Source of the DNA: Anisus vortex
Lineage: Eukaryota; Mollusca; Gastropoda; Planorbidae
Assembly (NCBI GenBank): GCA_949126835.1
Contig: OX421503.1
Span: 765,001-829,000, forward strand
Direction of reading: 5' to 3'
Length of the DNA stretch: 64,000 bases
The notes under the pieces are model-generated. The model searched no databases. It saw only the letters and a program-made list of their open reading frames with translations, and was not told the origin of the DNA. Positions within the stretch are counted from its first letter, which is position 1. Each line of letters starts with the position of its first letter. This document shows, piece after piece, positions 10,117 to 54,959 of this stretch. A program made the position numbers and the translations under genes.

Positions 10117-10287
10117 TAAATAGCACTATCCCTGACTGAGAGACGAACGCTTGTCGCCCGTATGCTTAAAATTTTCTTTACTGAAAACATTTCAGGATTA
10201 AAGCTATCCTGAAATGTTTTCAGTAAAGAAAATTTTAAGCATACGGGCGACAAGCGTTCGTCTCTCAGTCAAGGATAGTGCTATTTA
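10117..10287. mobile_element. Snap-back MITE (167 bp) with TA duplication
   Basis: Two arms of about 80 bp are nearly perfect inverted copies: AATAGCACTATCCCTGACTG at 10119 pairs with its complement ending at 10285, with one mismatch in the first 20 bases and a loop of a few bases (near TAAAGC). TA flanks both ends (10117-10118 and 10286-10287), as for Tc1/mariner-type MITEs. It ends 13 bp before the giant inverted-repeat element. Confidence 0.85.
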
Positions 10288-10294
10288 TTTCTTT

Positions 10295-10300
10295 CACTTT
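10295..10300. repeat. Target-site duplication CACTTT (left)
   Basis: Identical to 25572-25577 on the other side of the giant palindromic element. Confidence 0.75.
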
Positions 10301-10369
10301 AGTAGTATAGTAGGGTCTTTTCGAGTCGCATTTGCGGGTGAGGATGACGGGTGACCCGCACGTGACCTT

Positions 10370-10660
10370 TGACCTTTGACCCGGAAGTGCCCTTTGACCC
10401 CGTCACCGGAAGTGACCCCAACCGGAAGTGACGTCATCCAAGATGGCGTCTACTCGTGTCGTTACACGACCGACCGTGACCTACTGACCCCTACTGGAAG
10501 TGACGTCACTACTGGAAGTGACGTCATCCAAGATGGCGTATCGTCGTGTTGTTACACGACCAACCGTGACCTAGTGGCCCCTTGACAGCTCGGTTATTTT
10601 GTGGTATTACACGTGCTTTGAGCACGTGCTTTAATTAAAGATGGCGGAACCAAGATGGCG
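10370..10660 (+). promoter_or_regulatory. Cluster of transcription-factor-like sites in the left tip
   Basis: Visible motifs: TGACCTTTGACCTTTGACCC (direct repeats of a nuclear-receptor half-site with 1-bp spacing), five CCGGAAGTG/CTGGAAGTG sites of ETS type, three TGACGTCA palindromes of CREB/ATF type, four ATGGCG sites in AAGATGGCG context of YY1 type, and two CACGTG E-boxes near 10610-10625. ETS, CRE and YY1 sites are combined in one module, GGAAGTGACGTCATCCAAGA, present twice, about 85 bp apart. The mirror cluster lies at 25212-25502. Confidence 0.45.
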
Positions 10661-11039
10661 TCTCGTCGTGTTGTTACACTGATTATTTTTGTCTGGTATT
10701 ATTTTTGTGTGGTATTATTTTTTCCCATTGTCATACAATGATTGACACATGTCCTTTTTTTTTTCTCCCATTGTTTTATAAGGGTCTTTCTAAGGTTCAG
10801 CGGATCTAAAATTTTATAATTAATTAATAATATTAATTAAGTAATTGATCACTTGTATAGTGTTCTTTATAATTTTCAATAGTAAAAGGCTTTTTTCAAT
10901 AAGTTTAATGTGTTTATTGCCCTAATTAGCACCTTTGAAGCGATAATTGCTGCCATTATTAGCGTGTAAAGGAACGTTTTTAAATACTAAGGGTCGTAAT
11001 TAGCACTAAATATCCCACGTTTTTTTTATACTTTTTTAC

Positions 11040-13660
11040 TTTTTACTTACTGGCATACATTAATTGTCTCTATTTTATACTTAATTAACATATTATAATT
11101 TTTATAGTTATAATTAACTTGTAAACAGGTGTTTTTAATGACTAAGGGCCGTAATTATCACTAAATAGACAACATTTTAATACGTTTTTGCCTTATTAAT
11201 TACATGGATACATTAATTGTCTCTATTTTATACTTAATTAACATATTATAATTTTTATAGTTATAATTAACTTGTAAACAGGTGTTTTTAATGACTAAGG
11301 GCCGTAATTATCACTAAATAGACAACATTTTAATACGTTTTTACCTTATTAATTACATGGATACAGTAATTTTCTTAATTTATTCTTAACTATTGAACTA
11401 ATTATAATTTTTATAGCCATAATTATCTCGTAAAGGGACGATTTTAATTCCTAAGGGCCGTAATTATCACATTTTAAGCTACAAGTCTCATGTAAGGAAC
11501 ACACATTTACTTACTTCGATACGGTAATTATCTTAATTTTATTCTTAACTAATTAACTGATTATAATTTGTATAGCCATAATTATCTCATAAAGGGACGA
11601 TTTTAATTACTAAGGGCCGTAATTATCACATTTTAAGCTACAATTCTCATGTAAGGAACGCACATTTACTTACTTCGATACGGTAATTATCTTAATTTTA
11701 TTCTTAACTAATTAACCGATTATAATTTGTATAGCCATAATTATCTCGTAAAGGGACGATTTTAATTCCTAAGGGCCGTAATTATCACATTTTAAGCTAC
11801 AATTCTCATGTAAGGAACGCACATTTACTTACTTCGATACGGTAATTATCTTAATTTTATTTTTAACTAATTAACTGATTATAATTTGTATAGCCATAAT
11901 TATCTCGTAAAGGGACGATTTTAATTACTAAGGGCCGTAATTATCACATTTTAAGCTACAATTCTCATGTAAGGAACGCACATTTACTTACTTCGATACG
12001 GTAATTATCTTAATTGTATTCTTAACTAATTAACTGATTATAATTTGTATAGCCATAATTATCTCATAAAGGGACGATTTTAATTCCTAAGGGCCGTAAT
12101 TATCACATTTCAAGCAACAATTCTCATGTAAGGAACGCACATTTACTTACTTCGATACGGTAATTATCTTAATTTTATTCTTAACTAATTAACTAATTAT
12201 AATTTGTATAGCCATAATTATCTCGTAAAGGGACGATTTTAATTCCTAAGAGCCGTAATTATAACATTTTAAGCTACAATTCTCATGTAAGGAACGCACT
12301 TTTACTTACTTCGATACGGTAATTATCTTAATTGTATTCTTAACTAATTAACTAATTATAATTTGTATAGCCATAATTATCTCGTAAAGGGACGATTTTA
12401 ATTACTAAGGGCCGTAATTATCACATTTTAAGCTACAATTCTCATGTAAGGAACGCACATTTACTTACTTCGATACGGTAATTATCTTAATTGTATTCTT
12501 AACTAATTAACTGATTATAATTTGTATAGCCATAATTATCTCATAAAGGGACGATTTTAATTCCTAAGGGCCGTAATTATCACATTTCAAGCAACAATTC
12601 TCATGTAAGGAACGCACATTTACTTACTTCGATACGGTAATTATCTTAATTTTATTCTTAACTAATTAACTAATTATAATTTGTATAGCCATAATTATCT
12701 CGTAAAGGGACGATTTTAATTCCTAAGAGCCGTAATTATAACATTTTAAGCTACAATTCTCATGTAAGGAACGCACTTTTACTTACTTCGATACGGTAAT
12801 TATCTTAATTGTATTCTTAACTAATTAACTAATTATAATTTGTATAGCCATAATTATCTCGTAAAGGGACGATTTTAATTACTAAGGGCCGTAATTATCA
12901 CATTTTAAGCTACAATTCTCATGTAAGGAACGCACATTTACTTACTTCGATACGGTAATTATCTTAATTGTATTCTTAACTAATTAACTAATTATAATTT
13001 GTATAGCCATAATTATCTCGTAAAGGGACGATTTTAATTACTAAGGGCCGTAATTATCACATTTTAAGCTACAGTTCTCATGTAAGGAACGCACATTTAC
13101 TTACTTCGATACAGTAATTATCTTAATTTTATTCTTAACTAATTAACTAATTATAATTTTAATAACCATAATTAGCTTGTAAACGGGTCTGTTTTTAATT
13201 ACAAAGGGCTTCAATTATCCATAAATAGACCACATTCTATATACGTTTTACCTTTTTACTTATTGGGATAGAGTAATTATCTTAATTTTATTCTTAATTA
13301 AATAATTGAAATTTTTTTATAGCCATAATTATCTTGTAAAGGGGCGTTTATTAATTACCAAGGGCCGTAATTAGCACTAAATAGACCAATTTTTTTTACT
13401 TTTTTAACTTTTTACTTACTTGAATATAGTCATTGTCTTTATTGTATACTTAATTAACTAACTAATTATAACTTTAAGAACCATAATTATCGTGTAAAGA
13501 GGTGTTTTTTAATTACTAAGGCCACAAAATTAGAACTAAATAGGCCACCTTTTATATACCTTTTACATTTTTACTTACTTGTATATAGTAATTATCTCTA
13601 TTTTATACTTAATTAAATAACTAATTTGTATTTTTATAGCCATAATTATATTGTAAAGGT
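11040..13660 (+). repeat. 159-bp satellite array in the left arm
   Basis: Units are phased by CTAAGGGCCGTAATTATCAC at 11451, 11610, 11769 and 11928, exactly 159 bp apart, and continue to about 13190; more diverged copies flank both sides. A variant unit (CATTTCAAGCAACAA) recurs at 12111 and 12588, 477 bp apart, that is three units, showing a higher-order duplication. Mirror array at about 22212-24832. Confidence 0.9.
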
Positions 13661-16615
13661 TTTTTTAAAATAAGATGACGTCTATTTTGTTCTTACACAT
13701 GATTTTAACACGTGATTTTTTTAAATTTAAGAATGTTTAATATTACTATTTCGGTTTGATTAAGCCTTTTCCTTATTTATTGACAATAAACAAAAGTACG
13801 ACATAAAGTATAACAGTACAACACTACAACAGTACAACAAAACAACATATAGAAAAAAAAAATAGGTTTAAGTTATGATGTGATTTTATTCATAGTATTA
13901 TATAGACATAGTACGTACATCAATTAAATAAGTTTATTTTTAATAATACTTTCATAGTATGTACATCAAACAAAAAGTTTATTTATAGCAATACATATAT
14001 ACATACAATAGCAACCAAAAAGCTTTATTTAGATCAATTCATATATACAGTATAATGTATTTATAGCAATCAAACAAGTTTATTTATAACAATGCGTATA
14101 TACAGTATAGTGTATTTATAGCAATTCATATATACAGTATAGTGTATTTATAGCAATCAAACAAGTTTATTTATATCAATTGATATATACAGTATAGTTT
14201 ATTTACAACAGTAAACAGGAAGCGTTGACAAGATCTGAAATAAATAAATGCTTGTCTTATAAAAAATTTAATAATAGTACTATGTATATATTGTAAGCAG
14301 GTTAAAAATAAAGCCACCACCTATCTATATAACGATACAAGCTAAATTAACATATTGTGATATAAAGACAAAAAATAACTTACCTTTTTTCTGTATATAA
14401 CAGCGACCTAGACACAAAAACTGGAACAAGGGTAGATTTACGATGCTAGAACAAGTGAAATTTAGCAATCTGCCTCGGACTATATATAGCGTATTTTGAC
14501 CACACCTGTATTTATCAGTATCATCTTAAAAGCCAACACTGTCTAAACCCATTTAAACATTACGTCTGGTTACGTATATTAAGCATAGGCTGAGAGTTTC
14601 GGTGTACAGGTAATTGGATTTGACTGGCCCTATGGTCAGTTTCCATTAGTTGCACTTGGCTAAGTGCATTTTACGCATTGCTGACCGAAACAGACCTGGT
14701 CAAAAATTTACTTATCTACCAACCTGAATCTCGGCTACGGCATCTGGCTCGTCACGATGATGTAACAATTCAGAAATTTTTAGTTCGCCAGCTGTTGCAC
14801 TAAGGCACTTAGTACAGACCTAAAGGTCAACTTTTTGCACTAATGGGTTTGGCTTATCAATCATCCATGTGGTCAGGTTTTTACATTTTTGCACTAAGGC
14901 ACTTAGTACAGTAAGGTCAATCCTTTTACTTATATACTTTATAATTACATAAGTCTACATTTGTATTTTGTACATTTTCTTTAAATTTTTATTGATAATA
15001 CATGTAAATACAGTTTACTTAACTCGTTTAAATTTAAATTAAATTAAAATTGAATTGTTTATTTATATAGCGCTTCTATCTATGCTATTTTAGCATGCTC
15101 AGTGCGATCTGTAAACACTTTTAAACATAAATGTTGCATATTTTAACTATTCTCTCGGCCAGATGGTCTTTAACTTGGTTGTGAGCGTTCACGCGAATGT
15201 ACATTATTTTAGTGAATGTGTATTTCGAGTATTCTTTTTTTAAATATTTCTCTTTTCAATTGAAATAATTTAAATTGTTTAATAGTTAAACGAAGTGTAA
15301 TGGTTGACTTACTATAACATCGTTATTTCCTTATTTACTTACCTAGTTTAAATGTGTATCTTTTAAATGTATAACTGCTAATAAACATCGCTTTAACTAT
15401 TAAAATTCAGTTTGATATACGTAAATGGTTGTATCTTTTCATTTTTGTCGTGTAATTTTTTACTTACTAGGGTTGAACGTTTTAAAATTTAAGTATATTA
15501 AGTGTTTCAAGTGGTATCCAATATGACGGGTCAGAAGGGGGCGGATCCAAGAGGGCCGATTCGAGTGTTCCACACACGGGTCAACTGGAAAACAAGATAG
15601 CGGCTAATCCAAGTAATATACAAGGGCAGTTACCGTGTAATAATTTTTTAAACAGTAAACATCAAGAGATTTCATTTTTTTAAATTTTTATTTGCGCGCA
15701 ATTACATCAAACAAGGAATAAAACAACAACATGACTGGTAGTTTTTTTTATATTATTTTCTTTTTTATTTTACATATCTAACTAAAGGTATATTTACAAT
15801 ACGAACACAGTCATTTATAATATAATAAATACGAGCATGGTTAATTTCTTACGTACATGAAACAAATAAAAAATCGACAATTAGTAATACGTACGTGTAG
15901 TCTGTATTTGTCTGTGTGTGCGTGTGTGTAGTATATAGGTCCTAGGGGTTCCTAAAGAAAATTATACTAGTAACGGTATTGTCTTAACATTGTCTGAGTA
16001 CATCTGTCTCTTTATGTAAAAATAAGAGCGTTAATTTCTGTGTAGTTAGTGTATGTATGAAGTAAAGGCGTTATGTGTAACAAACTTTTTTTAAATAGTA
16101 AATCAGACATCCAGGCTAAACTAAATTACCAAGTTTAATGTTTATGTCACAACTGGCGACTCTTACAAATGTTGCGACAAGGTTTTCTGTAAGAATCTTG
16201 CACAATCATCCGAGCGCTATGTGTTTCATTTGTCCCTCGGTAGTGTACTTTGAGCATGATTCCGATTGTTTACTACAGCTTTTCAACTTTTTGGTATACA
16301 GAAGTCACGGACAGGATACGACAAGTAGTAATCTATACCCAACATACTTGTTTTTAAAACAACTAGGCATATCATCTTACACGTTTATAGAACTCCTCTT
16401 GGTACATCACAGTGACGTTAATTTTTTTATACAACTAAGACATGTCAAACAATCCCAAATTTTGTGTTTGTTTCCACAATTAGAAACATTTTCAGTTTGA
16501 CAAATATTTTTAGAGACCCTTGCGTGTTTGACAGGCAATAATGTTAACTTTTACATCACGAATGACTAGTTTCTTTTTCTGCCTTGCGCAATCTTTGTAT
16601 CGCTTACTACTTTCT

Positions 16616-16674
<59 letters not shown>

Positions 16675-17393
16675 ACAAACCTGTTAGGGTAACTTTTTAG
16701 AAATCGTTTACACACGCGACAAACTTTTAAGTACATCTTCTCAAACTCTCGATAGCGCTCTCTGTCTCCAACTTTCTCTCACAAAACATCTCTCTTTCAA
16801 CAGCGTTCCCTCTTTCTGTCTTTGACTGCTTTCCTTACTATGTCTACACTTATTTATCTCTCCGTCTCTTTCTCTAACAAAACGTTAGGTCACTCCAACC
16901 TAACCATTACACGTGCTCTTTTTTCTGCATTGCTCATTATCTGTATCTCTTACTACATGCTTCTATCTTTCTCCCGCTCTCTAGAAAAACTTTATGGTCA
17001 GCAAAACCTAACACATAATTTGCTACACAGCTTTCATTATGTCTTTCGTTTTCTTTTTTTTCCGCGTGCCATCGTTTACATTCTTAGTCTCTGTGACTCT
17101 CTTTCCTTACGCGTGTCTCGAGAGCTTTCTCTCACGAAACGTTTAGTTACTCTAAGGAGCACTCTTTCAACAGCGTTCCCTCTTTCTGTCTTGTTCAATC
17201 TCTACCTTCTTACTTACTTCTTCTCTCTTTCTAAAATTGTCTTTCATTTTATGTTTTATAACGTGCAAATCGTTAAACATGGTCACTCCTAATGCTAAAA
17301 CGGTGTGTACATTACACGTAAACAAGGTTTTACAAGTAAGAGATATATAGCAAAGGCCAAGGTCAACTGAGACTAGTGTGAATTTGGGAAAAG

Positions 17394-18482
17394 CCCCTCC
17401 TCGCTCTACCTAACTATCACTGTCTAAAACTTACCAAATATTACCAAACTAGTTACGTAAACCTTTTAATTATCAAACCAACATTTACTAATAGTAGTGG
17501 GTAGAACCTTTGTAACGCATACCACTCACCAACTATACAACTCTTGTCATTCCATCACCACCCAAATATATCTTCCAACTTAAGACAATCTTGCTCGACT
17601 TAAATCCTTAGAATATTTTTATAGATAGCCCTGTCCTAACACCAACTTTACAAAACACATATCTACAACCCCGAAGTAAATTTCCCCACTTAGAAAATCT
17701 TGCTTGACTGATGTCATGGAAGATTTCTGATAGTCTATCTTTATCGATATCGCCGTCCTACCACAGACTTTACAAAACACATATCTACAACCCCCAAGTG
17801 AATTTCCCCACTTAGGAAATCTTGCTTGACTGATGTCATGGAAGATTTCTGATAGTCTATCTTTAAAGATATCCCCGTCCTACCACCGACTTTACAAAAC
17901 ACATATCTACAACCCCCAAGTGAATTTCCCCACTTAGGAAATCTTGCTTGACTGATGTCATGGAAGATTTCTGATAGTCTATCTTTATCGATATCGTCGT
18001 CCTACATCAGACTTTACAAAACATATATCTACAACCCCAAGTGAATTTTCCCACTTAGGAAATCTTGCTTGACCCAAACCTTCTAATAGACCTACTTTTA
18101 TTGATAGCCCTGTCCAAAACACTAATCTTAAAAAAAACCTTTATAGATATCCCTGTCCAAAACACAACCCAAAACATATATCTACAACACCCAATTATAC
18201 CTTCCCACTTAGGCAATCTTGCTTGACTCAAACCCTTATAATACTTCTATAGTTAGTCCTGTCCAAAACACTAACTTTACAAAACACTACACCTTCAGTT
18301 TAAAGTATTACTTTTTCACTACCCTATCCAACTTATAGTAGTAATTGCTAAAAATAATAAATACACATCCTAAAACTTATCACAATTCCTTTAAACTAAT
18401 TCTAGTGATTTACAAAACTCTTTACAATATTGACTATCAACCCCAAACTAGTACAAACAAATAAATTTTTTCTTCTACCCCA
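17394..18482. repeat. Spacer of the giant element with 122-bp tandem repeat
   Basis: Single-copy region between the arms. Units containing CTTTACAAAACACATATCTA, CCCCACTTAGGAAATCTTGC and GACTGATGTCATGGAAGATT start near 17646, 17768, 17890 and 18012, spaced 122 bp; diverged copies continue to about 18300. It has no ORF of note. It is not inverted, so it fixes which half is which. Confidence 0.85.
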
Positions 18483-19201
18483 CTTTTCCCAAATTCACAC
18501 TAGTCTCAGTTGACCTTGGCCTTTGCTATATATCTCTTACTTGTAAAACCTTGTTTACGTGTAATGTACACACCGTTTTAGCATTAGGAGTGACCATGTT
18601 TAACGATTTGCACGTTATAAAACATAAAATGAAAGACAATTTTAGAAAGAGAGAAGAAGTAAGTAAGAAGGTAGAGATTGAACAAGACAGAAAGAGGGAA
18701 CGCTGTTGAAAGAGTGCTCCTTAGAGTAACTAAACGTTTCGTGAGAGAAAGCTCTCGAGACACGCGTAAGGAAAGAGAGTCACAGAGACTAAGAATGTAA
18801 ACGATGGCACGCGGAAAAAAAAGAAAACGAAAGACATAATGAAAGCTGTGTAGCAAATTATGTGTTAGGTTTTGCTGACCATAAAGTTTTTCTAGAGAGC
18901 GGGAGAAAGATAGAAGCATGTAGTAAGAGATACAGATAATGAGCAATGCAGAAAAAAGAGCACGTGTAATGGTTAGGTTGGAGTGACCTAACGTTTTGTT
19001 AGAGAAAGAGACGGAGAGATAAATAAGTGTAGACATAGTAAGGAAAGCAGTCAAAGACAGAAAGAGGGAACGCTGTTGAAAGAGAGATGTTTTGTGAGAG
19101 AAAGTTGGAGACAGAGAGCGCTATCGAGAGTTTGAGAAGATGTACTTAAAAGTTTGTCGCGTGTGTAAACGATTTCTAAAAAGTTACCCTAACAGGTTTG
19201 T

Positions 19202-19257
<56 letters not shown>

Positions 19258-21359
19258 GAAAGTAGTAAGCGATACAAAGATTGCGCAAGGCAGAAAAAGA
19301 AACTAGTCATTCGTGATGTAAAAGTTAACATTATTGCCTGTCAAACACGCAAGGGTCTCTAAAAATATTTGTCAAACTGAAAATGTTTCTAATTGTGGAA
19401 ACAAACACAAAATTTGGGATTGTTTGACATGTCTTAGTTGTATAAAAAAATTAACGTCACTGTGATGTACCAAGAGGAGTTCTATAAACGTGTAAGATGA
19501 TATGCCTAGTTGTTTTAAAAACAAGTATGTTGGGTATAGATTACTACTTGTCGTATCCTGTCCGTGACTTCTGTATACCAAAAAGTTGAAAAGCTGTAGT
19601 AAACAATCGGAATCATGCTCAAAGTACACTACCGAGGGACAAATGAAACACATAGCGCTCGGATGATTGTGCAAGATTCTTACAGAAAACCTTGTCGCAA
19701 CATTTGTAAGAGTCGCCAGTTGTGACATAAACATTAAACTTGGTAATTTAGTTTAGCCTGGATGTCTGATTTACTATTTAAAAAAAGTTTGTTACACATA
19801 ACGCCTTTACTTCATACATACACTAACTACACAGAAATTAACGCTCTTATTTTTACATAAAGAGACAGATGTACTCAGACAATGTTAAGACAATACCGTT
19901 ACTAGTATAATTTTCTTTAGGAACCCCTAGGACCTATATACTACACACACGCACACACAGACAAATACAGACTACACGTACGTATTACTAATTGTCGATT
20001 TTTTATTTGTTTCATGTACGTAAGAAATTAACCATGCTCGTATTTATTATATTATAAATGACTGTGTTCGTATTGTAAATATACCTTTAGTTAGATATGT
20101 AAAATAAAAAAGAAAATAATATAAAAAAAACTACCAGTCATGTTGTTGTTTTATTCCTTGTTTGATGTAATTGCGCGCAAATAAAAATTTAAAAAAATGA
20201 AATCTCTTGATGTTTACTGTTTAAAAAATTATTACACGGTAACTGCCCTTGTATATTACTTGGATTAGCCGCTATCTTGTTTTCCAGTTGACCCGTGTGT
20301 GGAACACTCGAATCGGCCCTCTTGGATCCGCCCCCTTCTGACCCGTCATATTGGATACCACTTGAAACACTTAATATACTTAAATTTTAAAACGTTCAAC
20401 CCTAGTAAGTAAAAAATTACACGACAAAAATGAAAAGATACAACCATTTACGTATATCAAACTGAATTTTAATAGTTAAAGCGATGTTTATTAGCAGTTA
20501 TACATTTAAAAGATACACATTTAAACTAGGTAAGTAAATAAGGAAATAACGATGTTATAGTAAGTCAACCATTACACTTCGTTTAACTATTAAACAATTT
20601 AAATTATTTCAATTGAAAAGAGAAATATTTAAAAAAAGAATACTCGAAATACACATTCACTAAAATAATGTACATTCGCGTGAACGCTCACAACCAAGTT
20701 AAAGACCATCTGGCCGAGAGAATAGTTAAAATATGCAACATTTATGTTTAAAAGTGTTTACAGATCGCACTGAGCATGCTAAAATAGCATAGATAGAAGC
20801 GCTATATAAATAAACAATTCAATTTTAATTTAATTTAAATTTAAACGAGTTAAGTAAACTGTATTTACATGTATTATCAATAAAAATTTAAAGAAAATGT
20901 ACAAAATACAAATGTAGACTTATGTAATTATAAAGTATATAAGTAAAAGGATTGACCTTACTGTACTAAGTGCCTTAGTGCAAAAATGTAAAAACCTGAC
21001 CACATGGATGATTGATAAGCCAAACCCATTAGTGCAAAAAGTTGACCTTTAGGTCTGTACTAAGTGCCTTAGTGCAACAGCTGGCGAACTAAAAATTTCT
21101 GAATTGTTACATCATCGTGACGAGCCAGATGCCGTAGCCGAGATTCAGGTTGGTAGATAAGTAAATTTTTGACCAGGTCTGTTTCGGTCAGCAATGCGTA
21201 AAATGCACTTAGCCAAGTGCAACTAATGGAAACTGACCATAGGGCCAGTCAAATCCAATTACCTGTACACCGAAACTCTCAGCCTATGCTTAATATACGT
21301 AACCAGACGTAATGTTTAAATGGGTTTAGACAGTGTTGGCTTTTAAGATGATACTGATA

Positions 21360-21690
21360 AATACAGGTGTGGTCAAAATACGCTATATATAGTCCGAGGC
21401 AGATTGCTAAATTTCACTTGTTCTAGCATCGTAAATCTACCCTTGTTCCAGTTTTTGTGTCTAGGTCGCTGTTATATACAGAAAAAAGGTAAGTTATTTT
21501 TTGTCTTTATATCACAATATGTTAATTTAGCTTGTATCGTTATATAGATAGGTGGTGGCTTTATTTTTAACCTGCTTACAATATATACATAGTACTATTA
21601 TTAAATTTTTTATAAGACAAGCATTTATTTATTTCAGATCTTGTCAACGCTTCCTGTTTACTGTTGTAAATAAACTATACTGTATATATC
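21360..21690 (+). promoter_or_regulatory. Possible Pol II promoter with short spliced leader in the right arm
   Basis: CCAATT at about 21254 and CGCTATATATAG at 21382-21393 resemble CAAT and TATA boxes. A strong donor (AAAAAAG/GTAAGT) follows at 21489 and a good acceptor (TTTATTTATTTCAG) near 21637, then AATAAA about 30 bases on. This would give a tiny two-exon non-coding transcript directed toward the right tip. The left arm has the same signals mirrored at 14182-14512 on the minus strand. These are pattern observations only. Confidence 0.25.
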
Positions 21691-22211
21691 AATTGATATA
21701 AATAAACTTGTTTGATTGCTATAAATACACTATACTGTATATATGAATTGCTATAAATACACTATACTGTATATACGCATTGTTATAAATAAACTTGTTT
21801 GATTGCTATAAATACATTATACTGTATATATGAATTGATCTAAATAAAGCTTTTTGGTTGCTATTGTATGTATATATGTATTGCTATAAATAAACTTTTT
21901 GTTTGATGTACATACTATGAAAGTATTATTAAAAATAAACTTATTTAATTGATGTACGTACTATGTCTATATAATACTATGAATAAAATCACATAATAAC
22001 TTAAACCTATTTTTTTTTTCTATATGTTGTTTTGTTGTACTGTTGTAGTGTTGTACTGTTATACTTTATGTCGTACTTTTGTTTATTGTCAATAAATAAG
22101 GAAAAGGCTTAATCAAACCGAAATAGTAATATTAAACATTCTTAAATTTAAAAAAATCACGTGTTAAAATCATGTGTAAGAACAAAATAGACGTCATCTT
22201 ATTTTAAAAAA

Positions 22212-24832
22212 ACCTTTACAATATAATTATGGCTATAAAAATACAAATTAGTTATTTAATTAAGTATAAAATAGAGATAATTACTATATACAAGTAAGTA
22301 AAAATGTAAAAGGTATATAAAAGGTGGCCTATTTAGTGCTAATTTTGTGGCCTTAGTAATTAAAAAACACCTCTTTACACGATAATTATGGTTCTTAAAG
22401 TTATAATTAGTTAGTTAATTAAGTATACAATAAAGACAATGACTATATTCAAGTAAGTAAAAAGTTAAAAAAGTAAAAAAAATTGGTCTATTTAGTGCTA
22501 ATTACGGCCCTTGGTAATTAATAAACGCCCCTTTACAAGATAATTATGGCTATAAAAAAATTTCAATTATTTAATTAAGAATAAAATTAAGATAATTACT
22601 CTATCCCAATAAGTAAAAAGGTAAAACGTATATAGAATGTGGTCTATTTATGGATAATTGAAGCCCTTTGTAATTAAAAACAGACCCGTTTACAAGCTAA
22701 TTATGGTTATTAAAATTATAATTAGTTAATTAGTTAAGAATAAAATTAAGATAATTACCGTATCGAAGTAAGTAAATGTGCGTTCCTTACATGAGAACTG
22801 TAGCTTAAAATGTGATAATTACGGCCCTTAGTAATTAAAATCGTCCCTTTACGAGATAATTATGGCTATACAAATTATAATTAGTTAATTAGTTAAGAAT
22901 ACAATTAAGATAATTACCGTATCGAAGTAAGTAAATGTGCGTTCCTTACATGAGAATTGTAGCTTAAAATGTGATAATTACGGCCCTTAGTAATTAAAAT
23001 CGTCCCTTTACGAGATAATTATGGCTATACAAATTATAATTAGTTAATTAGTTAAGAATACAATTAAGATAATTACCGTATCGAAGTAAGTAAAAGTGCG
23101 TTCCTTACATGAGAATTGTAGCTTAAAATGTTATAATTACGGCTCTTAGGAATTAAAATCGTCCCTTTACGAGATAATTATGGCTATACAAATTATAATT
23201 AGTTAATTAGTTAAGAATAAAATTAAGATAATTACCGTATCGAAGTAAGTAAATGTGCGTTCCTTACATGAGAATTGTTGCTTGAAATGTGATAATTACG
23301 GCCCTTAGGAATTAAAATCGTCCCTTTATGAGATAATTATGGCTATACAAATTATAATCAGTTAATTAGTTAAGAATACAATTAAGATAATTACCGTATC
23401 GAAGTAAGTAAATGTGCGTTCCTTACATGAGAATTGTAGCTTAAAATGTGATAATTACGGCCCTTAGTAATTAAAATCGTCCCTTTACGAGATAATTATG
23501 GCTATACAAATTATAATTAGTTAATTAGTTAAGAATACAATTAAGATAATTACCGTATCGAAGTAAGTAAAAGTGCGTTCCTTACATGAGAATTGTAGCT
23601 TAAAATGTTATAATTACGGCTCTTAGGAATTAAAATCGTCCCTTTACGAGATAATTATGGCTATACAAATTATAATTAGTTAATTAGTTAAGAATAAAAT
23701 TAAGATAATTACCGTATCGAAGTAAGTAAATGTGCGTTCCTTACATGAGAATTGTTGCTTGAAATGTGATAATTACGGCCCTTAGGAATTAAAATCGTCC
23801 CTTTATGAGATAATTATGGCTATACAAATTATAATCAGTTAATTAGTTAAGAATACAATTAAGATAATTACCGTATCGAAGTAAGTAAATGTGCGTTCCT
23901 TACATGAGAATTGTAGCTTAAAATGTGATAATTACGGCCCTTAGTAATTAAAATCGTCCCTTTACGAGATAATTATGGCTATACAAATTATAATCAGTTA
24001 ATTAGTTAAAAATAAAATTAAGATAATTACCGTATCGAAGTAAGTAAATGTGCGTTCCTTACATGAGAATTGTAGCTTAAAATGTGATAATTACGGCCCT
24101 TAGGAATTAAAATCGTCCCTTTACGAGATAATTATGGCTATACAAATTATAATCGGTTAATTAGTTAAGAATAAAATTAAGATAATTACCGTATCGAAGT
24201 AAGTAAATGTGCGTTCCTTACATGAGAATTGTAGCTTAAAATGTGATAATTACGGCCCTTAGTAATTAAAATCGTCCCTTTATGAGATAATTATGGCTAT
24301 ACAAATTATAATCAGTTAATTAGTTAAGAATAAAATTAAGATAATTACCGTATCGAAGTAAGTAAATGTGTGTTCCTTACATGAGACTTGTAGCTTAAAA
24401 TGTGATAATTACGGCCCTTAGGAATTAAAATCGTCCCTTTACGAGATAATTATGGCTATAAAAATTATAATTAGTTCAATAGTTAAGAATAAATTAAGAA
24501 AATTACTGTATCCATGTAATTAATAAGGTAAAAACGTATTAAAATGTTGTCTATTTAGTGATAATTACGGCCCTTAGTCATTAAAAACACCTGTTTACAA
24601 GTTAATTATAACTATAAAAATTATAATATGTTAATTAAGTATAAAATAGAGACAATTAATGTATCCATGTAATTAATAAGGCAAAAACGTATTAAAATGT
24701 TGTCTATTTAGTGATAATTACGGCCCTTAGTCATTAAAAACACCTGTTTACAAGTTAATTATAACTATAAAAATTATAATATGTTAATTAAGTATAAAAT
24801 AGAGACAATTAATGTATGCCAGTAAGTAAAAA
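22212..24832 (-). repeat. 159-bp satellite array in the right arm
   Basis: Mirror of the array at 11040-13660, with the same number and order of variant units, including the 477-bp higher-order duplication (CTTGAAATG variants near 23281 and 23758). Confidence 0.9.
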
Positions 24833-25211
24833 GTAAAAAAGTATAAAAAAAACGTGGGATATTTAGTGCTAATTACGACCCTTAGTATTTAAAAACGTTC
24901 CTTTACACGCTAATAATGGCAGCAATTATCGCTTCAAAGGTGCTAATTAGGGCAATAAACACATTAAACTTATTGAAAAAAGCCTTTTACTATTGAAAAT
25001 TATAAAGAACACTATACAAGTGATCAATTACTTAATTAATATTATTAATTAATTATAAAATTTTAGATCCGCTGAACCTTAGAAAGACCCTTATAAAACA
25101 ATGGGAGAAAAAAAAAAGGACATGTGTCAATCATTGTATGACAATGGGAAAAAATAATACCACACAAAAATAATACCAGACAAAAATAATCAGTGTAACA
25201 ACACGACGAGA

Positions 25212-25502
25212 CGCCATCTTGGTTCCGCCATCTTTAATTAAAGCACGTGCTCAAAGCACGTGTAATACCACAAAATAACCGAGCTGTCAAGGGGCCACTA
25301 GGTCACGGTTGGTCGTGTAACAACACGACGATACGCCATCTTGGATGACGTCACTTCCAGTAGTGACGTCACTTCCAGTAGGGGTCAGTAGGTCACGGTC
25401 GGTCGTGTAACGACACGAGTAGACGCCATCTTGGATGACGTCACTTCCGGTTGGGGTCACTTCCGGTGACGGGGTCAAAGGGCACTTCCGGGTCAAAGGT
25501 CA
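25212..25502 (-). promoter_or_regulatory. Cluster of transcription-factor-like sites in the right tip
   Basis: Mirror copy of the left tip cluster: CACGTGCTCAAAGCACGTG, three TGACGTCA sites, CGCCATCTTGG sites, CACTTCCGGT sites and GGGTCAAAGGTCAAAGGTCA, whose repeats with 1-bp spacing resemble HNF4/RXR sites. Confidence 0.45.
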
Positions 25503-25571
25503 AAGGTCACGTGCGGGTCACCCGTCATCCTCACCCGCAAATGCGACTCGAAAAGACCCTACTATACTACT

Positions 25572-25577
25572 CACTTT
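25572..25577. repeat. Target-site duplication CACTTT (right)
   Basis: Matches 10295-10300. Confidence 0.75.
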
Positions 25578-32800: not shown

Positions 32801-35800
32801 GCATACTATGTAGGTCTGGTAAAACATAGCTTGTTTATACTTGTTATGTGTGCTGACTATCCATTCTCTTAATTAATAAGTATAATTTGGTCCATTTATT
32901 ATTGCCAAGAAAAATATATCAGTAGAAAACAATGTTATATATAAGTCGGCTAAATCGTACCACTCTATGGAGGGCATTAAGTACCGGTACTAATTACCCG
33001 CAGTGGTACGTTTTAGCCGCAATAGACTTTGTGAATTGATTATATAATAACTCATAATAAAATATCTTTATAATTTGGAGTTTCTGGAACTGTTGAGTCA
33101 CTTCTGTACCCATGAGCCTTAAAGTATGAGGAAGTGTGTAAACCGCCGATACGCTCCCCTTAGAGTACACATGGGGAACGGCTGGTGGTGTACGTCTGGA
33201 GATCATTGCACTGTCGAGAGGCTCCGAGACTCGGTGTGTAGGAAGCAGTGAGTGCCGAAGGTGGCTAGTTGCGGACAGGTTATTGGCAGTGCCCTCACAT
33301 AGGGGGCGGCACTTCCAGGGGGGAGGGCGGCAAATGTAGTCTAAATATAGCAAATATTATAGCACTAAACAAGCAGTTACAGTATGCAAGGGTGCGGCGC
33401 TGAAACTTTTACCCTGGGGCGCCACATAAGCTTGTAAAGGCACTGGTTATTGGTGTTCACTCCCCCCCCCCACCTCCCACTTTTCCACTTGATCCACCCC
33501 TTAACATATAACATAAAAGCTGACATTTTGAGACACGTATAGCTAGAAACTGGTGAGTTCTTCCCTTTTTTACTCCCTTTATTTTAAGTTGCAATTTCTG
33601 TCTGTCTTTCTGTCTGTCTGGGAGCAAAACTTTGCTTCGATTTTTTGACCACTTCCCGTGGTCCGATCAAGCTGAAATTTAGACAGCAGACTTGCCCCGA
33701 CTAACAATTCATCCTATTAAATTTTCAGTTCAAACAACTTAATAATACTACACTTATGACAATATTCATTTCTTAAAAGGAAAGTATAAGAAATATTTTA
33801 ATTTCGCGTTAAAAATGCCTGTGCAACTTTCTATAGTTTTTCGGCGCAAAGCTAGAAAAAAAAAATTATGCACTACGATTTTTTTTAGAACAATTCATAC
33901 GGAGTAAGGAGATATTTTTGAGATTTGCGACACAGATATTTTTCTGTACGTTTCATTTGCAGTAAGCTTAGTCAATCAATTATTTAATTACATGATGGTA
34001 AACTTAGTTTGCAAATAAAGGGAGTATAATGAAAACTTTGTTTTTATGGTTTTCTTGTTACCTGTTTATAATATTGTAGACCTTTTACGTTCTAGCTACA
34101 CACACGTATGTCACTATCTTAGAGTGGATTCTTACATTTTCTTTTTCAGAAAACAGGCAAATGCATGGACAGAAAATCTTATGAAAAAGGCTCTTCTCTT
34201 ATTAAAAGATGGCATATGTGGTATAAATGAATGTTCTAAGATGTTTGGGATATCCAAACCCACTTTAAGACGCCACCTTCTCAGCAAAAACAAATACGCA
34301 AAAGATGGAGTAAAGGTCAGGGGGAGATCAACAAGTCTGCCACCTGAAGTAGAGGAAGATCTTGTCAAGCATATACAAATACTTGAGGGAATGATGTTTG
34401 GAATCACAAGAAAGGACCTGATGCAATTAGCGTATCAGTTAGCTGAGGCTAATAATTTGCTACATGCGTTCATCAAAACCAAAAGAACGGCAGGTAAGGA
34501 TTGGTTTAATGCATTCATGAAGCGCCACCCAAATTTAAGTTTACGCCTGGCTGAGCCCACATCTATTGCTAGTGCGTCTGGCTTTAACAGCCGGCTGGTC
34601 CAGCGGTTAGTTCACCGGACTGTCAACCAAAAACCAACTGACAGGTCGCGGGTTCTAACCCTGCCACCGACGGATCCCTGTCGCCCTGCAGGAGTTTTGG
34701 GCCTAGTGGACGTAATAATCTTCTATCTAGAAGGAACGTCTGTAAACTTATAAGAAAAAAAACAGAACATCTATGAATGGATTTTATGACAAACTTCAGA
34801 ATATATTGGACATCCATTCCATTCAGCCTAATGAAATTTACAATATGGACGAGACAAATTTATCAACAGTGCCTAAAACAAGACATAGAGTAATAGCAGC
34901 AAAAGGAAAGCGCCAGGTCGGATCTCTTTCTAGTGCAGAGAAAGGTGTTACAACCACTGGCGTTTTTTGTATAAACGCTGCAGGATATTTTCTTCCACCG
35001 ATGGTGATTTTTAAACGAAAAAGAATGAAAGATGAGCTGAAAGACGGGGCACCTCCTGGAACACCTTTTGCATGCAACGAAAGTGGATGGATGGATTCAG
35101 AACTTTTTGAAATGTGGATGGACCACTTTATATCTTGTGTAAAACCATCAAAAACCCACCCTGTCCTTTTGATCTTAGATGGACATGCAACCCACACTAA
35201 AAACGTTAACGCCATCATGAAAGCGTCTGAATCGGGTGTAATTATGCTAAGTCTTCCCCACATACAACACATTGCATGCAACCTCTGATACCCAATATGT
35301 AACTGTAACACCAGTACGCACTGAAAATTTTAGAATAGTTAAAACAACCCCTGATGGACGTTGTTTTTTCAGAAGTGTTGCTATAAGTCTAAATGAATTC
35401 CTTCAGCGAATTGACAGAGATGAAAATGGACTGATAAAGGATAATGTTAAAAGGTTTCAAGAACAAATTCTAGCTGATTCATTAAGAGCCCAAGTTATGA
35501 ATTGCATGTGCCAACATTTTAGTGAATATGAGGGGCTTGACAAAGAAATTCTTTGCTCTGATATGCCATCTTACATAAGATACAACAATTTTTCAGAGAG
35601 ACTCCAGGACATGTTAAGCCCAATCACTATGCCTGGAGAGTTGGAACTAATTGCAAAGAGCAAATGTTTGCAGAAGCCCATAATAGTTCATAACAAAAGA
35701 AACAGCTCTGTATTAAAGTATGGTATGAAAGAATATGCATCTTCAACATCAGTTGTTCTCCTGTTCACTAAGATTGGGGAGGTTGTAGGTCACTATGACT

Positions 35801-38800
35801 GCTTAGTTCTATCCGAGCCGCAAGATAAGGCAGCACCAGATCATTACATTCCTGTAAGACAAATCTCACCAATACCAGTGCCAGTTACTAGAGATAGAGA
35901 AAGAAAAAGGAAACAAGAAAGCTCCCAAATATTGACATCAAGCCCTTATAAACGACAACTTTTATTGACCCCGAAAGCTAAAAGTGCAAATTGTCGTTTT
36001 GAAAAACAACAACCTCAAATTATCAAACAAAGGAATACCAATAGGCCTACGTCTAGTGCAAAATTGAAAAAAATGCTCCAGAAAAAAGACCTAACGTTTA
36101 TCGGCCAAGAAAATAAAGATCTGCATTGGTACTGCTTTATGTGCGATGAGAACCTTGAGGAAGACATGATACAATGTTTAATCTGTAGAGAATGGATACA
36201 TGTTGCATGCTGTGCATCAGCCTAACAAAATGGATCTCTAGATAACTATACTTGTGAATTATGCCAGTGAATTAATTTTATACAATTGAGATTTTAAAAA
36301 AAAATTCAGCTAATGAATGTGAACATTTAAAAAAAAAAAGGTTTTCTTCATTCCTTTTGGTACTTATTACCCTTCCTAGTGGTACGAATTGAACGCTGGT
36401 GAGGGTAATTCGTACCACTTGGTCTTTTTTTTTTTTTATTAACTGTGCTCTTTGTTTTCATAATAACACGTTGAAATCTTGTATTTTCATTATTTTGTCA
36501 ACAATAATTGTTTTAACGTTAAAATAAACATTTTTCTATAGTTAGTTTTTTTATTGTTAATTTTTTCCCTTAGGGGGTACGAATTACCCACCTCTCCCCT
36601 AGATGTGTGTGGCTAGCCTTTAATTTAAAAGACTTTGTTAAGACATTCAATGGAATTTTGTAGCATACAAAATCTTAAGTATATTATACATAGACAAAAA
36701 AATTGAACACCTATCAACACAAGGTAGAGTCAACGAAAGTTCCGGACATCAAATTTGACTTTTGATTTCAATGTCAATTATTTTAATAGAACGTATATAC
36801 AAATAAAAAGTAGTAGCAGTACATATTTAAACAAGCCTCATACATTATAATGTATAGACCTATATGAAGGATTAATGTAAGATAATTTAATGCAAACAGG
36901 AGGCATGAAATTGTGGTCTAGAGATTGGAATCTAATCGTTTTCTGAAACATGCACACAATCAATAAAAAGCCACTTACGACATCGAAAGATAAAGAAAAA
37001 CAGCGTTATGATGAAAACCAAGAGAAAACTGACGACACTCAAAATTACAATTAGCGTCAACTGTTCTCCATTTCCATTGTTGGTGTTCTGATCATTTATT
37101 GGTGTTTTAACTGCTGTTGGTTAAAAACATTTTTAGTAATGTGCGAATAATAATACTAACTTATATTAAAGATAACTATAAAGAATTACATATATAAGTT
37201 ATATTTTAAATACTTGGAAAATAAAAATAAATTGTCTAGGCTATCACTTCATCTGGTCTTAATGTACGTTACCCGTCAAAACACTGTCAACGGTCTTAAA
37301 ATACGTTTTTGACACAGTAAGAAGACGCATATGAAATAATAATAATAATAATAATATTTGTATAGCGCTGCCAACAAACATAATGTAAGCTCAGAGCGCG
37401 TTTAACATACAACTAAGAATACGAATATTACCCTAGGCCAGGTGACAGAGCTAAATTGATGATTAAAAAAGACAAAACAAATATAAATGTAGTATAACCG
37501 ACCCAACCCATAAATAAGACAGTAAGTTTCTAAAGCATGTTGAATGTTATCTAAGGTAAATATTGAAATAATGAGTTTTTAAGTTCTGTTTGAAAGTAAC
37601 AGTAGAGCTTGTTCGCCTCAGTTGAATGGGAAATTGATTCCACACCTTCGGTATGCAGGTATTTAGGTATGGCTTACTATGAGCTCTGACATCGGTAGCA
37701 GAATGACAGAAAGTGAAATATCATGAAGGGGCCTGGATTCATGAGTTGACGATTCTACAGAGCGTTCCCAGTATAATAATATACAAAATAAAAAAGTCAC
37801 AAGTATTTTGAGAGCTCTGTGGATGGCTGTTAATGGACGATTGGCCAGCTTTTGGTCTTTAAAACCCTAAATTAGGTCTTTGAGACCGTGATCCAATATA
37901 GGTCGATCCCAGAATACCAGAATATTCAATGTTATAGACTTTGTGTTATTTTGTTTAGTTTTAGTTACTTCTAAGATCGCTTTCATTGTGATCAGTATGC
38001 AAGTTTTTTCCTCATGTATCTTTTCATATATAATATTTATATATATATATGTTATCATCTTATCTTTTATTTTATTTATGTTACCTACTTCTCAAGTGTT
38101 GATTCAATATATATGTGAAAGAATATAAGAAAATTAAGCTAAAATGCAGCTTAAAAAGTACAATAATATGCCACTAATATGCTGATATACAGATAGTTGC
38201 AGTAATCTTCAACATGTGATATATCATATCGATCTAATCGCCCTATCGAGTTGTAACAATACAAACTTTCAGAGATTTTTTTAATGCATACCTGACGTCA
38301 CAAAGACTTTAGTAGTTGTCGTAGTATCTAATAAAATAATACGACCAAATAAAGTAAGCAAAGTTATTTCATTGAAAAATAAATATTATTATGTTCATGT
38401 CAATTACTTACACATAATTTACGTCATTCTTTCACTTGGTTTAGGTAAGTGTTTCGCTATTTCGATTAAAATTGTATACAAGTATTGATAAAGTATATAA
38501 TTTCCAATTGAATGTTTGACATAGGCTAATATTCGAAAAGTAAAACCTTGTAAATTTTGCCTATAAAAATAGATTGAGGCTATGTTATAAACTAGATTGC
38601 ACAAAAAGTCTAAGGGAATAATACATAGCATATAAAATATTATATCTGCTAAATTACTTACCTATGCTAGATGTAAATAAGGTCTTAATTATTGTCGATT
38701 TCTTAATCATTTCATTAACTTGTTTTGTAGTACTGTATGCTGATGGAAATAATAAACATATCACTATTTTTATCTCTTAAATGTTATAGACGTTCCTTTT

Positions 38801-42884: not shown

Positions 42885-44530
42885 TGAATGGCAGACAGCT
42901 AACCCAGAACCTAAAAAAACAAAAACATTAGATTTTAGACATCTAACCCAAAGCCTAAAAAATATTAGATGTCAGACGGCTAAGACAGAATCACAGCAAA
43001 ACATTAGATTTCAGACAGATAACCCAGAGATTCAGAAAACTTTAGATGTCTGACAGCTAACCCAGAACCTTAGAAAAAAACATTAGATTTCAGACTGCTT
43101 GCCCAGAGCCTAAAAGAACATTAGATTTCAGACTGCTAGCCCAGAGCCTAAAAAAACATTAGATTTCAGACTGCTAGCCCAGAGCCTAAAAAAACATTAG
43201 ATTTCAGACTGCTAGCCCAGAGCCTAAAAAAAAACATTAGATTTCAGACTGCTAGCCCAGAGCCTAAAAAAACTATAGATTTCAGACTGCTATCCAAAAG
43301 CCTAAAAAAACATTAGATTTCAGACAGCTAACCCAGAGCCTAAAAAAAATTAGATTTCAGACTGCTAGCCCAGAGCCTCAAAAAACATTAGATTTCAGAC
43401 TGCTAGCCCAGAGCCTAAAAAAACATTAGATTTCAGAGTGCTAACCCAAAGCCTAAAAAAACATTAGATTTCAGACAGCTAACCCAGAGCCTAAAAAAAC
43501 ATTAGATTTCAGACAGCTAACCCAGAGCCTAAAAAAAACATTAGATTTCAGACTGCTAACCAATAGCCTAAAAAACATTAGATTTCAGACAGCTAACCCA
43601 GAGCCTAAAAAAACATTAACATTAGATTTCAGACAGCTAACTCAGAGCCTAAAAAAATATTACATTTCAGACAGCTAACCCAGAGCCTAAAAAAACATTA
43701 ACATTAGATTTCAGACAGCTAACCCAGAGCTTAAAAAAACATTAGATGTCAGACAGCTAAGGCAGAGCCTCAGAAACAAACCTTAGATACTAAACTAGGG
43801 CCTAAAAAAACATTAGATTTCAGACAGCTAACCCAGAGCCTAAAAAAAATTAGATTTCAGACTGCTAGCCCAGAGCCTCAAAAAACATTAGATTTCAGAC
43901 TGCTAGCCCAGAGCCTAAAAAAACATTAGATTTCAGAGTGCTAACCCAAAGCCTAAAAAAACATTAGATTTCAGACTGCTAACCCAGAGCCTAAAAAATC
44001 ATTAGATTTCAGACTGCTAACCCAGAGCCTAAAAAAAACATTAGATTTCAGACTGCTAACCAATAGCCTAAAAAACATTAGATTTCAGACAGCTAACCCA
44101 GAGCCTAAAAAAACATTAACATTAGATTTCAGACAGCTAACTCAGAGCCTAAAAAAATATTACATTTCAGACAGCTAACCCAGAGCCTAAAAAAACATTA
44201 ACATTAGATTTCAGACAGCTAACCCAGAGCTTAAAAAAACATTAGATGTCAGACAGCTAAGGCAGAGCCTCAGAAACAAACCTTAGATACTAAACTAGGG
44301 CCTAAAAAAGCATTAGATGTCAGACAGATGAACCGGAGCTTCAAAGAAAAATATTCGATGTCAGACAGCTAAACCAGAGCCTTTAATATACCGTTGGAGG
44401 TCAAACAGCTAAACCTAAGTCTTAAATGTCATAGTATGTCAGACAGCTGAACATGAGCCTAAAAATCATTACAAGTCAGACAGCTGTACCAAAGCCATTA
44501 ACAAGTACCTTGAATGCCACACCGCTGAAC
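42885..44530. repeat. Minisatellite of about 38 bp with 500-bp higher-order repeat
   Basis: More than 40 copies of a unit close to CTAACCCAGAGCCTAAAAAA plus ACATTAGATTTCAGACAG, with two main variants (GACAGCTAACCC and GACTGCTAGCCC). The block starting CAGACAGCTAACCCAGAGCC at 43321 recurs at 43821, so a 500-bp group of units was duplicated. Copies decay toward 44530. Confidence 0.9.
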
Positions 44531-44559: not shown

Positions 44560-44892
44560 TGCAGTCAAAGACTTGCTGTTCTAGCATGGTCACTCTTCTT
44601 CGCCTACGACGTCTCTGGTGGCTTGTCCGTGTTTCCAGGATAGAGGTTGGGGGAATCTCGTAAGACCTGCTAAATGATGAGCTACTGGCCGCCCCCCCCC
44701 CAACTTAGGATTAATGACGTCTGCAAGCGCGACCTAAAGGCTATAGATGTAGAGGTCAGAAACTGGGAGAAACTTGCTCAGCACAGAAGTAGTTGGAGAG
44801 GCACCTTACACACCGGTATAAATGATGCAGATGGCAAACTTCGCCTTATCGCGGGGGCTAAAAGAGCAGCAAAGAAAAAGTAAATAACATAG
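44560..44892 (+). pseudogene. LINE C-terminal relic, left part of a split copy
   Basis: Reads PRDLLNDEL-like sequence, then QLRINDVCKRDLKAIDVEVR, NWEKLAQHRSSWRGTLHTGI and KRAAKKK: the GRP/VCKRDLK/W-x-x-x-A-x-D/HR-x-x-WR tail of RTE-group LINEs. It is cut at 44892 by the LTR element and continues at 57556. Confidence 0.7.
44889..44892. repeat. Target-site duplication ATAG (left)
   Basis: Matches ATAG at 57552-57555, outside the second LTR. Confidence 0.7.
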
Positions 44893-45600
44893 TGTTACAT
44901 CCACAATTCCCTTGTGGCCAGAGCTGTGTAGATCCTGTTGATAATTCTCATTAGTCCTAGGGGAGACTTTAGTTATTATTATTTATGTTTCAGTATTACA
45001 CGAACTCTTCTTATAGTCCTGGGTACAAACTCAAAAATTGTGTTCTAACAGTTCCTTTCCTTGACGTTAGAGTAGTAGATACATATTATAGTATTGTAGA
45101 CAACACAATAGAATAGTAACTTGACGAGGAAGCTTCAGTGTATATGTTGTTGATAGTTTACTTCAGGTGATATGTTCAATATATACAATATATGTATTAT
45201 GTACAGTTAGAATAAAATAGTGCAAACACAAGCGTCCTCAAAGGAACATATCTTGAAAACTCTCTGTCTTCCAGACAAACAAATTATTAAATACTATACA
45301 AGTGGTGCAAGGGATAGACCCATTACTAGTAGGGGTGAAAATCATGGTATCATTACTAAACTCATAACAAAAACAATATGAACTTCCTTATGACATAATG
45401 AGTCGTTCCCAGACACTCTGAGAATTTGAGATCAACACAGAATCCCAACATTACCTAGAATCTTTTGTCTTCGTACTAAACGTCAGGCAATCGGAAAGCC
45501 TAAGCCCCGCCCACAAAATCGTGTGTAGTGAGAAAAAAAGAGAGGGGGGGAAGAATAAACATTGCGTGTTCCAATTCTTGGAAAAACAATATACATGACA
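44893..45600 (-). repeat. 3' LTR of the Gmr1-like element
   Basis: 708 bp; differs from the 5' LTR at about 20 positions plus small indels, consistent with an older insertion. Confidence 0.85.
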
Positions 45601-46812
45601 CGCCCCCACCCAATGAAAGAAATAATGTACCATAATTACCAAAGTAATACTCAACATGGTACATTTTTCGTACTTAACACTATCGTTTTAACAACCATCA
45701 ATCAATGAAAGATCATAAGACAATTTAAGCAAAACATGGCTCATTGGCATAATTAAATTATAAAAAAGTGTCATTACTTAATGGTAATTGTGATTATAAC
45801 GTGATTTCCCCATTAACATTAAAATTAACTAATCTCTCAACAAGTACAAATAATTCCAAAATATTCTAGTCATTCTTATTTTAACTATTTACAGTTGTGT
45901 GGATTTCCACCAAAAATTAGCAAAAAGTTTTAATCTATTTAAACAAATATAACATTGCTCAAACTCTGGCAATTTTCAACAGTTTACTTCTAATAATATA
46001 CAAACTAAAAGATAAGTAATACGTCACTCGAATCAAACTATAGGTTACTTCCCCTTTAAATTACAGTGTCAACTTGACATTAACAGGGTTCATACCTAAG
46101 GTGATGATTACTTCCCATTTTCTCAAATATGAGGAGAAATACGCTCCAGTTACAATTACTACAGTAATCTAAATATTAAAATGTAATCTACCATTATGCG
46201 TTTTTGGCAAATTTTAAAGATTGTTCAGGGTTAGATGAGTGCACACCTTTTATGTACCTTTGTTTCCCTCCATTCCCGGATATATGGAATATATAACATA
46301 GTGATAGTATCCACTAGCTTTTCCCATTATATTACCAAGATATAACAATTTAGCAATAGATTTCCAATATTATCTATTAATTTATACCAATTGCTATTAC
46401 ACCTCTTTCTTAGATAAAAATTGTACATATTATTATTTAGTTTTAAAATAAAACACGATAACAAATCAATTAGCTCAAAGTTTCCCCACTTAATTGCATG
46501 TGATGTCAATTACTTTTATCCATCCATATCAAGTAAAAACATACATATATATTTATTGCATAATGCATCCAAATTTAAATGGCATTTTCTTTCCATAATA
46601 AAATGAATCAAATGAATTTAAAATATATCAGAACATCAATATAATACATGATTATAGAAAATGATTAATATTTTAAAAAAGACTTGACTTCTGTCTGATA
46701 CAAGTATTCTATAGGTATTCCATAATCAAAATTCAAACAAATGATAGATTATCATGACACATTCTTAATGAACAAGTGAGATGATCTTAAAAAAAAACAT
46801 TGGGTTATTCAG
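45601..46812 (-). other. AT-rich 3' region of the Gmr1-like element
   Basis: About 1.2 kb between the RNase H stop codon (46815-46813) and the 3' LTR; no ORF of note. Confidence 0.6.
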
Positions 46813-48738: not shown

Positions 48739-48995
48739 ACTCACCCGGGCGATTTGGGAATCTACTCAGAAAGTGGATTCATACCTAATTTACTGTCTCT
48801 GGGGTATGGGATCTTAGTGAGAGTACCGGGATAGTATCTGCGAGTGGTATCTTGGCGTGTCCACGTGTTGGTGGTGGGTCTGTGACGGGGAGGGGTCGGA
48901 GGGAACAAGGGGACGCGTTAAGTTATCTTCTGGGGGGGGGCGAGTATGGCGCTGGGTTATATTGTACCCGGCCCATCGGGTGTATAGGGTTAACG

Positions 48996-51770: not shown

Positions 51771-51939
51771 GCTTGCGTTTGAGGTGGTGGATCTGTTTGC
51801 TGCTTAGAGTCTTCGTGTTGTAGAGAGATGAGCCCCCAATCCAGGGTCGGTTTCAGTAACGGCGTGGTCCTCGGGTTGATTGCTGTTGTTAGTGCCCTGA
51901 ACGGCTTGAGTTCAGGATCCCGCGGCGAGGTCCCCACTT

Positions 51940-54919: not shown

Positions 54920-54959
54920 AATAGATTGAGTACAGCTATTCTCTTTTACCTTAGATAGG

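Follow-up and report, generated by a model that had tools for sequence, protein, structure and literature searches.

A giant palindromic element with Maverick/Polinton-type ends in Anisus vortex

The 64,000 nucleotides of the gastropod Anisus vortex analysed here (hereafter the window) contain a very long, near-perfect palindrome, which raises the questions of what kind of element it is and how it could have come to carry the same end on both sides.

Architecture of the palindrome and its surroundings

The element spans positions 10301-25571 (15,271 bp) and consists of inverted arms around a single-copy spacer, as determined by self-BLAST and base-by-base alignment (Table 1). Self-BLAST returned a single inverted match (7,112 columns, 99.8%; 10282-17393 versus 25590-18483), the outermost bases of which fall outside the tips, and the arm limits were taken from the alignment. 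A sequence-only reading of this DNA had described a giant near-perfect palindrome with two arms of about 7.09 kb, a non-inverted 1.09-kb spacer and a flanking 6-bp CACTTT duplication; all of this was borne out, both copies of CACTTT abutting the tips. Going inwards from a tip, a GC-rich 0.4 kb is followed by a 159-bp satellite, smaller AT-rich repeats, some 3 kb of largely unique sequence and finally the spacer. No weight was given to another CACTTT (18481), where the spacer meets the right arm, as the hexamer occurs 20 times on the plus strand of the window.

Table 1. Features of the palindromic element and its target site (window coordinates)
Feature	Position	Strand	Basis or remark
Left target-site duplication CACTTT	10295-10300	.	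adjoins left tip
Left arm, 7,093 bp	10301-17393	+	self-BLAST, alignment
Left tip AGTAGT, Maverick-type (AGT)2 end motif	10301-10306	+	
GC-rich subterminal region, repeated GGAAGTGACGTCA and AAGATGGCG motifs, 90-bp duplication	10301-10680	+	
159-bp AT-rich tandem repeat, ~17 copies	10952-13659	+	self-BLAST, tandem-repeat scan
Shorter AT-rich tandem repeats, units 46, 55, 87 and other lengths	13907-14205	+	
126-aa stop-to-stop ORF	16120-16500	+	no Pfam family, no relative
TC microsatellite with 4-bp arm difference	16616-16673	+	
178-aa stop-to-stop ORF in pyrimidine-rich stretch	16756-17292	+	one database relative
Spacer, 1,089 bp, single-copy, non-inverted; putative fold-back loop	17394-18482	.	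self-BLAST, alignment
122-bp tandem repeats within spacer	17614-18287	+	TRF array 17614-18073; diverged copies to ~18287
Right arm, 7,089 bp, left arm inverted	18483-25571	-	self-BLAST, alignment
178-aa ORF, right-arm copy	18584-19120	-	
159-bp tandem array, right-arm copy	22213-24920	-	
GC-rich subterminal region, right-arm copy	25192-25571	-	
Right tip ACTACT	25566-25571	-	
Right target-site duplication CACTTT	25572-25577	.	adjoins right tip

Two base differences and one 4-bp microsatellite difference had initially been counted between the arms. The 4-bp indel, located in the TC microsatellite, is indeed the sole indel between the arms, but the alignment gave four substitutions rather than two (left/right): (i) 13113/22759 A/G, (ii) 13534/22338 A/C and (iii) 13877/21995 G/T outside the microsatellite, and (iv) one C/T change within it (16637/19235). 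At 13113, the left arm has an A and the right arm a G, as do the 10 satellite copies within 3 mismatches; A is also found at the equivalent position of two more distant copies (7-8 mismatches). Judging from these copies, the A at 13113 looks like a mutation later than the arm duplication, and the same comparison gave no polarity for 13534 or 13877. The 159-bp arrays, which in both arms combined make up 35% of the element, match end to end with two substitutions only, which suggests either that an entire arm was copied recently or that the arrays were homogenised.

The possibility of an artefact of assembly or reads, either a fold-back chimera or a mis-join of haplotypes, has to be weighed, since long palindromes are difficult to assemble, this locus is known from the assembly alone and the three substitutions outside the microsatellite fall within 765 bp. 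However, a fold-back chimera would have inverted the left flank too, whereas here the inversion ends at the tips, the flanks differ and CACTTT matches; in addition, one arm difference resembles a CpG-to-CpA change, judged by the satellite copies. An artefact is considered highly improbable.

The window as a whole is AT-rich and rich in eukaryotic transposon remains. Among 10 ORFs scanned in it, Pfam matches above cut-off were to DDE_1, Tc5-type HTH, OTU, PNMA and SCAN, and those below cut-off to reverse transcriptase, integrase and PHD; neither the Rfam nor the tRNA scan of the whole window found anything. A near-perfect hairpin of 171 bp (10117-10287; 95% self-complementary), separated from the left CACTTT by 7 bases, has the appearance of a small foldback MITE. 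Adjoining ORFs at 34019-36225 match a Tc5-type HTH, DDE_1 and an OTU protease, with a PHD finger below cut-off; they could represent a single pogo/Tigger-like element, with an OTU gene either inside it or next to it. Among named relatives, the one closest to the DDE_1 ORF comes from Hydra vulgaris (82% identity over 79%). Further along lie a long tandem array (42921-44382; 38-bp unit, 37.9 copies) and nested LTR retrotransposons (44887-57551), with outer LTRs at 44887-45600 and 56838-57551 (96.2%) and an inner pair at 47472-48738 and 51934-53194 (99.4%; TGTC...GACA ends, CCACT on both sides). The inner LTR element holds GC-rich tandem repeats at 51372-51756 (units of 49-159 bp among others), which are spanned by a 186-aa minus-strand ORF.

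Ends, target site and coding content

The palindrome is regarded as an inserted transposable element because the inversion goes no further than the tips, each of which has CACTTT immediately beside it. That CACTTT is a genuine duplication, as initially proposed, withstood comparison with chance (about 0.06% for a flanking 6-bp repeat): within the window, 30 of the 48,717 position pairs at a spacing of 15,271 bp are flanked by such a repeat, and among 2 million random pairs the share is 0.056%. The AGTAGT motif is present at 0.029% of positions when both strands are counted, and the joint chance of the tip and the 6-bp duplication is about 1.6e-7, the boundary being fixed independently by the inversion end. 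A Ginger2 transposon was excluded, as the AT-rich 6-bp RTATAY targets and TGTNR ends of that group (PMC2836005) do not fit.

The ends were compared with those of Mavericks/Polintons, as given in a vertebrate survey (PMC8097293). According to that survey, (AGT)2//(ACT)2 is the commonest vertebrate end motif, and such a repeated motif is tied by its authors to 'jumping-back' in protein-primed replication; 134 intact vertebrate Mavericks have 6-bp target duplications and a mean length of 16.9 kb. Their TIRs measure 46-1,447 bp, and vertebrate Maverick lengths of 12.7-24.6 kb are described as constrained (about 17 kb with about 10% variation). The element from A. vortex has exactly the same AGTAGT...ACTACT ends, although the motif statistics are those of vertebrates; it shares the 6-bp target duplication, and its length lies inside the published range (z = -0.95 against the vertebrate mean). 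The Polinton/Maverick hint first taken from an AG tip, the 6-bp duplication and the length is thus stronger than claimed, the tip being the full AGTAGT motif. In contrast, the inverted arms, at 7,093 bp, are 4.9 times the published vertebrate TIR maximum, and recognised polymerase, integrase, ATPase, protease and capsid genes are absent from the scanned ORFs.

Indeed, no Pfam family was found at cut-off in the 30 ORFs scanned out of 51 of at least 40 aa that overlap the left arm and spacer; weak matches below cut-off were to four families, all from a single low-complexity ORF, and to one further family from another. These 30 ORFs include no Maverick gene (protein-primed PolB, integrase, ATPase, protease, capsids), in agreement with the first reading, and no transposase family. 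Because this gene set is missing from them, the element is called Maverick-tipped and non-autonomous, not a Maverick, and it is the tips, the duplication and the size alone that suggest the link to Mavericks.

The earlier description of the element as being without coding capacity holds for Pfam families in the scanned ORFs, but two stop-to-stop ORFs, both without Pfam match, are longer than expected by chance. None of 500 shuffles of the non-satellite arm produced an ORF of 178 aa, and 5 of 1000 local shuffles did; 126 aa was attained by 1 of 1000 local shuffles, while the number of ORFs of at least 60 aa is as expected (8 versus 7.3 in shuffles). Given these two lengths, a lost or unusual gene is possible. 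The 178-aa ORF, which could be a gene, lies in a region (16601-17300) that is 63-83% pyrimidine and in which stops are rare. Of 157 candidates, a single relative of this ORF passed E <= 0.01 (P0001, 146/150 identical), and it comes from a 1,375-bp ENA contig; going by this match, inner-arm sequence occurs elsewhere, as an allele, as a second copy or in another species. The match is no proof of coding, because a near-identical DNA copy would match equally well without coding. By tblastn, this ORF had no match in 64 pattern stretches of viral contigs or in 313 of prokaryote-only genome contigs, and the 126-aa ORF had no database relative at E <= 0.01.

Relatives of the element itself were sought by pattern in viral contigs, where the 21-base tip, a subterminal 25-mer and a satellite 16-mer were each found 0 times and a 15-base tip in 16 stretches. 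These 16 loci were taken as chance matches: BLAST found no inverted repeat of at least 30 bp at the tip match, the only inverted repeat listed (L002) being a local hairpin away from it, and the one longer tip match (L015; 24 bases, 91.7%) lies inside a 452-aa ORF. Among open-licence papers, a few search wordings found no mention of non-autonomous Polintons or Mavericks, and no open-licence title retrieved under broader wordings names such a palindrome.

The first 400 bp are GC-rich (52%), with CpG not depleted (31 versus 26.5 expected). Strand hits there, with the mean of 300 shuffles in brackets, are 6 for TGACGTCA (0.007), 3 for GGAAGTGACG (0.003), 4 for AAGATGGCG (0.003) and 2 for TGACCTTTGACC (0); the motifs were chosen after inspecting the sequence, so that these figures are no blind test, and the local 90-bp duplication accounts for part of the excess. 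The motifs resemble CRE/ETS, YY1 and nuclear-receptor sites, and may form a promoter or a protein-binding array.

Such repeated motifs could also be transposase-binding sites in a foldback DNA transposon of another or unnamed superfamily, making a 6-bp duplication and mobilised in trans by a standard DDE transposase. Long inverted arms, internal tandem repeats and lack of genes give the element a foldback look, judging from the description of Galileo (PMC4168063), but the exact (AGT)2//(ACT)2 ends and the 6-bp duplication match Mavericks, and Galileo duplications are of 7-8 bp. This origin is judged improbable, and the exact tip makes the unnamed foldback class raised in the first reading a less likely, if conceivable, alternative.

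Possible origins of the palindrome

The preferred reading, given roughly an even chance, is that a non-autonomous element with Maverick/Polinton-type ends became palindromic by snap-back in protein-primed replication and was integrated in trans at CACTTT; its parent, helper, fold-back step and mobility are what we infer. In brief, (i) a linear parent, already without recognisable genes in the duplicated half, would have been under protein-primed strand-displacement replication, (ii) a single strand of the replicating parent would have broken or stalled, (iii) its 3' end would have turned back, leaving a loop of 1.09 kb, and used its own strand as primer and template for synthesis as far as the terminus, (iv) both sides of the product would have carried an identical end and thereby one and the same signal for replication and integration, and (v) a helper Maverick polymerase and integrase could have acted in trans, for replication and then for insertion with a 6-bp duplication. 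The tip, the duplication and the length fit the earlier idea of a giant non-autonomous derivative with a protein-primed or integrase-based partner, in which the partner and the mobility are presumed.

Protein-primed replicons expose long displaced single strands, so that fold-back would yield a molecule with the same end twice, competent for both replication and integrase. In adenovirus symmetric recombinants and yeast pGKL1 palindrome-hairpin plasmids, which are extrachromosomal, half of a linear protein-capped replicon is doubled, and Streptomyces palindromes are palindromic derivatives of protein-capped linear replicons. In general outline, the half-doubling into a two-ended palindrome would be similar, whereas the element sits in the genome between the copies of a 6-bp duplication and bears no recognised gene, the protein-capped palindromic replicons being extrachromosomal.

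Fold-back priming and hairpin replication have been described (PMC10622511), and the signature of fold-back synthesis, a single-copy spacer between inverted copies, was reported for all 21 human junctions that were sequenced, with spacers of 766-70,466 bp (PMC3907307). The same arrangement is found here, with 1,089 bp of single-copy sequence between the inverted copies, although the human duplications are chromosome rearrangements without transposon ends or target duplications. The annealing site is unreadable, because the paired bases would be the innermost arm bases. Several points count against the preferred reading: (i) the duplicated half has no recognisable genes, whereas a fresh snap-back from an autonomous Maverick would show genes, (ii) the arms far exceed the longest vertebrate TIR, (iii) the scanned ORFs include no Maverick gene, (iv) the 178-aa and 126-aa ORFs are above usual shuffle lengths, and (v) the pattern and protein scans of viral contigs and the protein scan of prokaryote contigs yielded no relative.

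Alternatively, an asymmetric element could have been inserted first, and break repair could later have replaced its right half, in place, with a copy of the left, with no mobility of the palindrome. The flanking duplication would then be retained because the ends are inverted repeats, and fold-back events that leave single-copy spacers are known from chromosomes (PMC3907307); on the other hand, repair synthesis would have to begin at the loop and end within the far end of the element. This course of events is rated very unlikely.

A Maverick-like parent with very long TIRs could also have lost its gene-bearing middle, leaving the 1.09-kb spacer, its TIRs having lengthened as tandem repeats expanded and internal sequence was recruited, and their identity being kept by gene conversion or replication. 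Galileo, of the P superfamily, offers a precedent: its longest copy in Drosophila willistoni has TIRs of 4,246 and 4,680 bp with tandem repeats of about 140 bp and no transposase segment (PMC4168063). The arms of the element likewise carry large tandem arrays, and Galileo/Foldback-type elements and this one have in common that their inverted arms are very long and contain tandem repeats, and that there are non-coding copies. However, vertebrate Maverick TIRs do not exceed 1,447 bp, and the 159-bp arrays match in length and nearly in sequence, whereas Galileo arrays are unequal between sides (PMC4168063); moreover, no version of the element with a larger middle is known. The element also differs from Galileo in its 6-bp target duplication, those of Galileo being of 7-8 bp, and in its longer and nearly identical arms; the absence of a P-type transposase from the scanned ORFs weighs little, as non-coding Galileo copies lack it too. 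TIR growth is a possible but rather unlikely origin.

A possible defective Maverick genome and its significance

Pursuing the Maverick-ended snap-back reading further, the element could be the integrated copy of a natural 'gutless' defective Maverick virus genome, i.e. a genome-length, gene-free palindrome with an origin at both ends and satellite filler, which a helper polymerase would copy, helper capsids would perhaps package and a helper integrase would insert. This proposal is tentative and, on balance, unlikely. By analogy, such a genome would be the DNA counterpart of copy-back defective interfering genomes. Stuffer DNA is needed in gutless adenoviral vectors (PMC7279171), which, together with the constrained size of Mavericks and the size of the element, makes packaging conceivable, if speculative; Maverick particles have not been observed according to the vertebrate survey (PMC8097293).

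If confirmed, the finding would mean that Maverick-type elements, like many viruses, shed parasitic defective genomes that depend on a helper, and that one replication accident can make a new mobile element in a single step. It would also provide physical evidence of strand-displacement replication in Mavericks.
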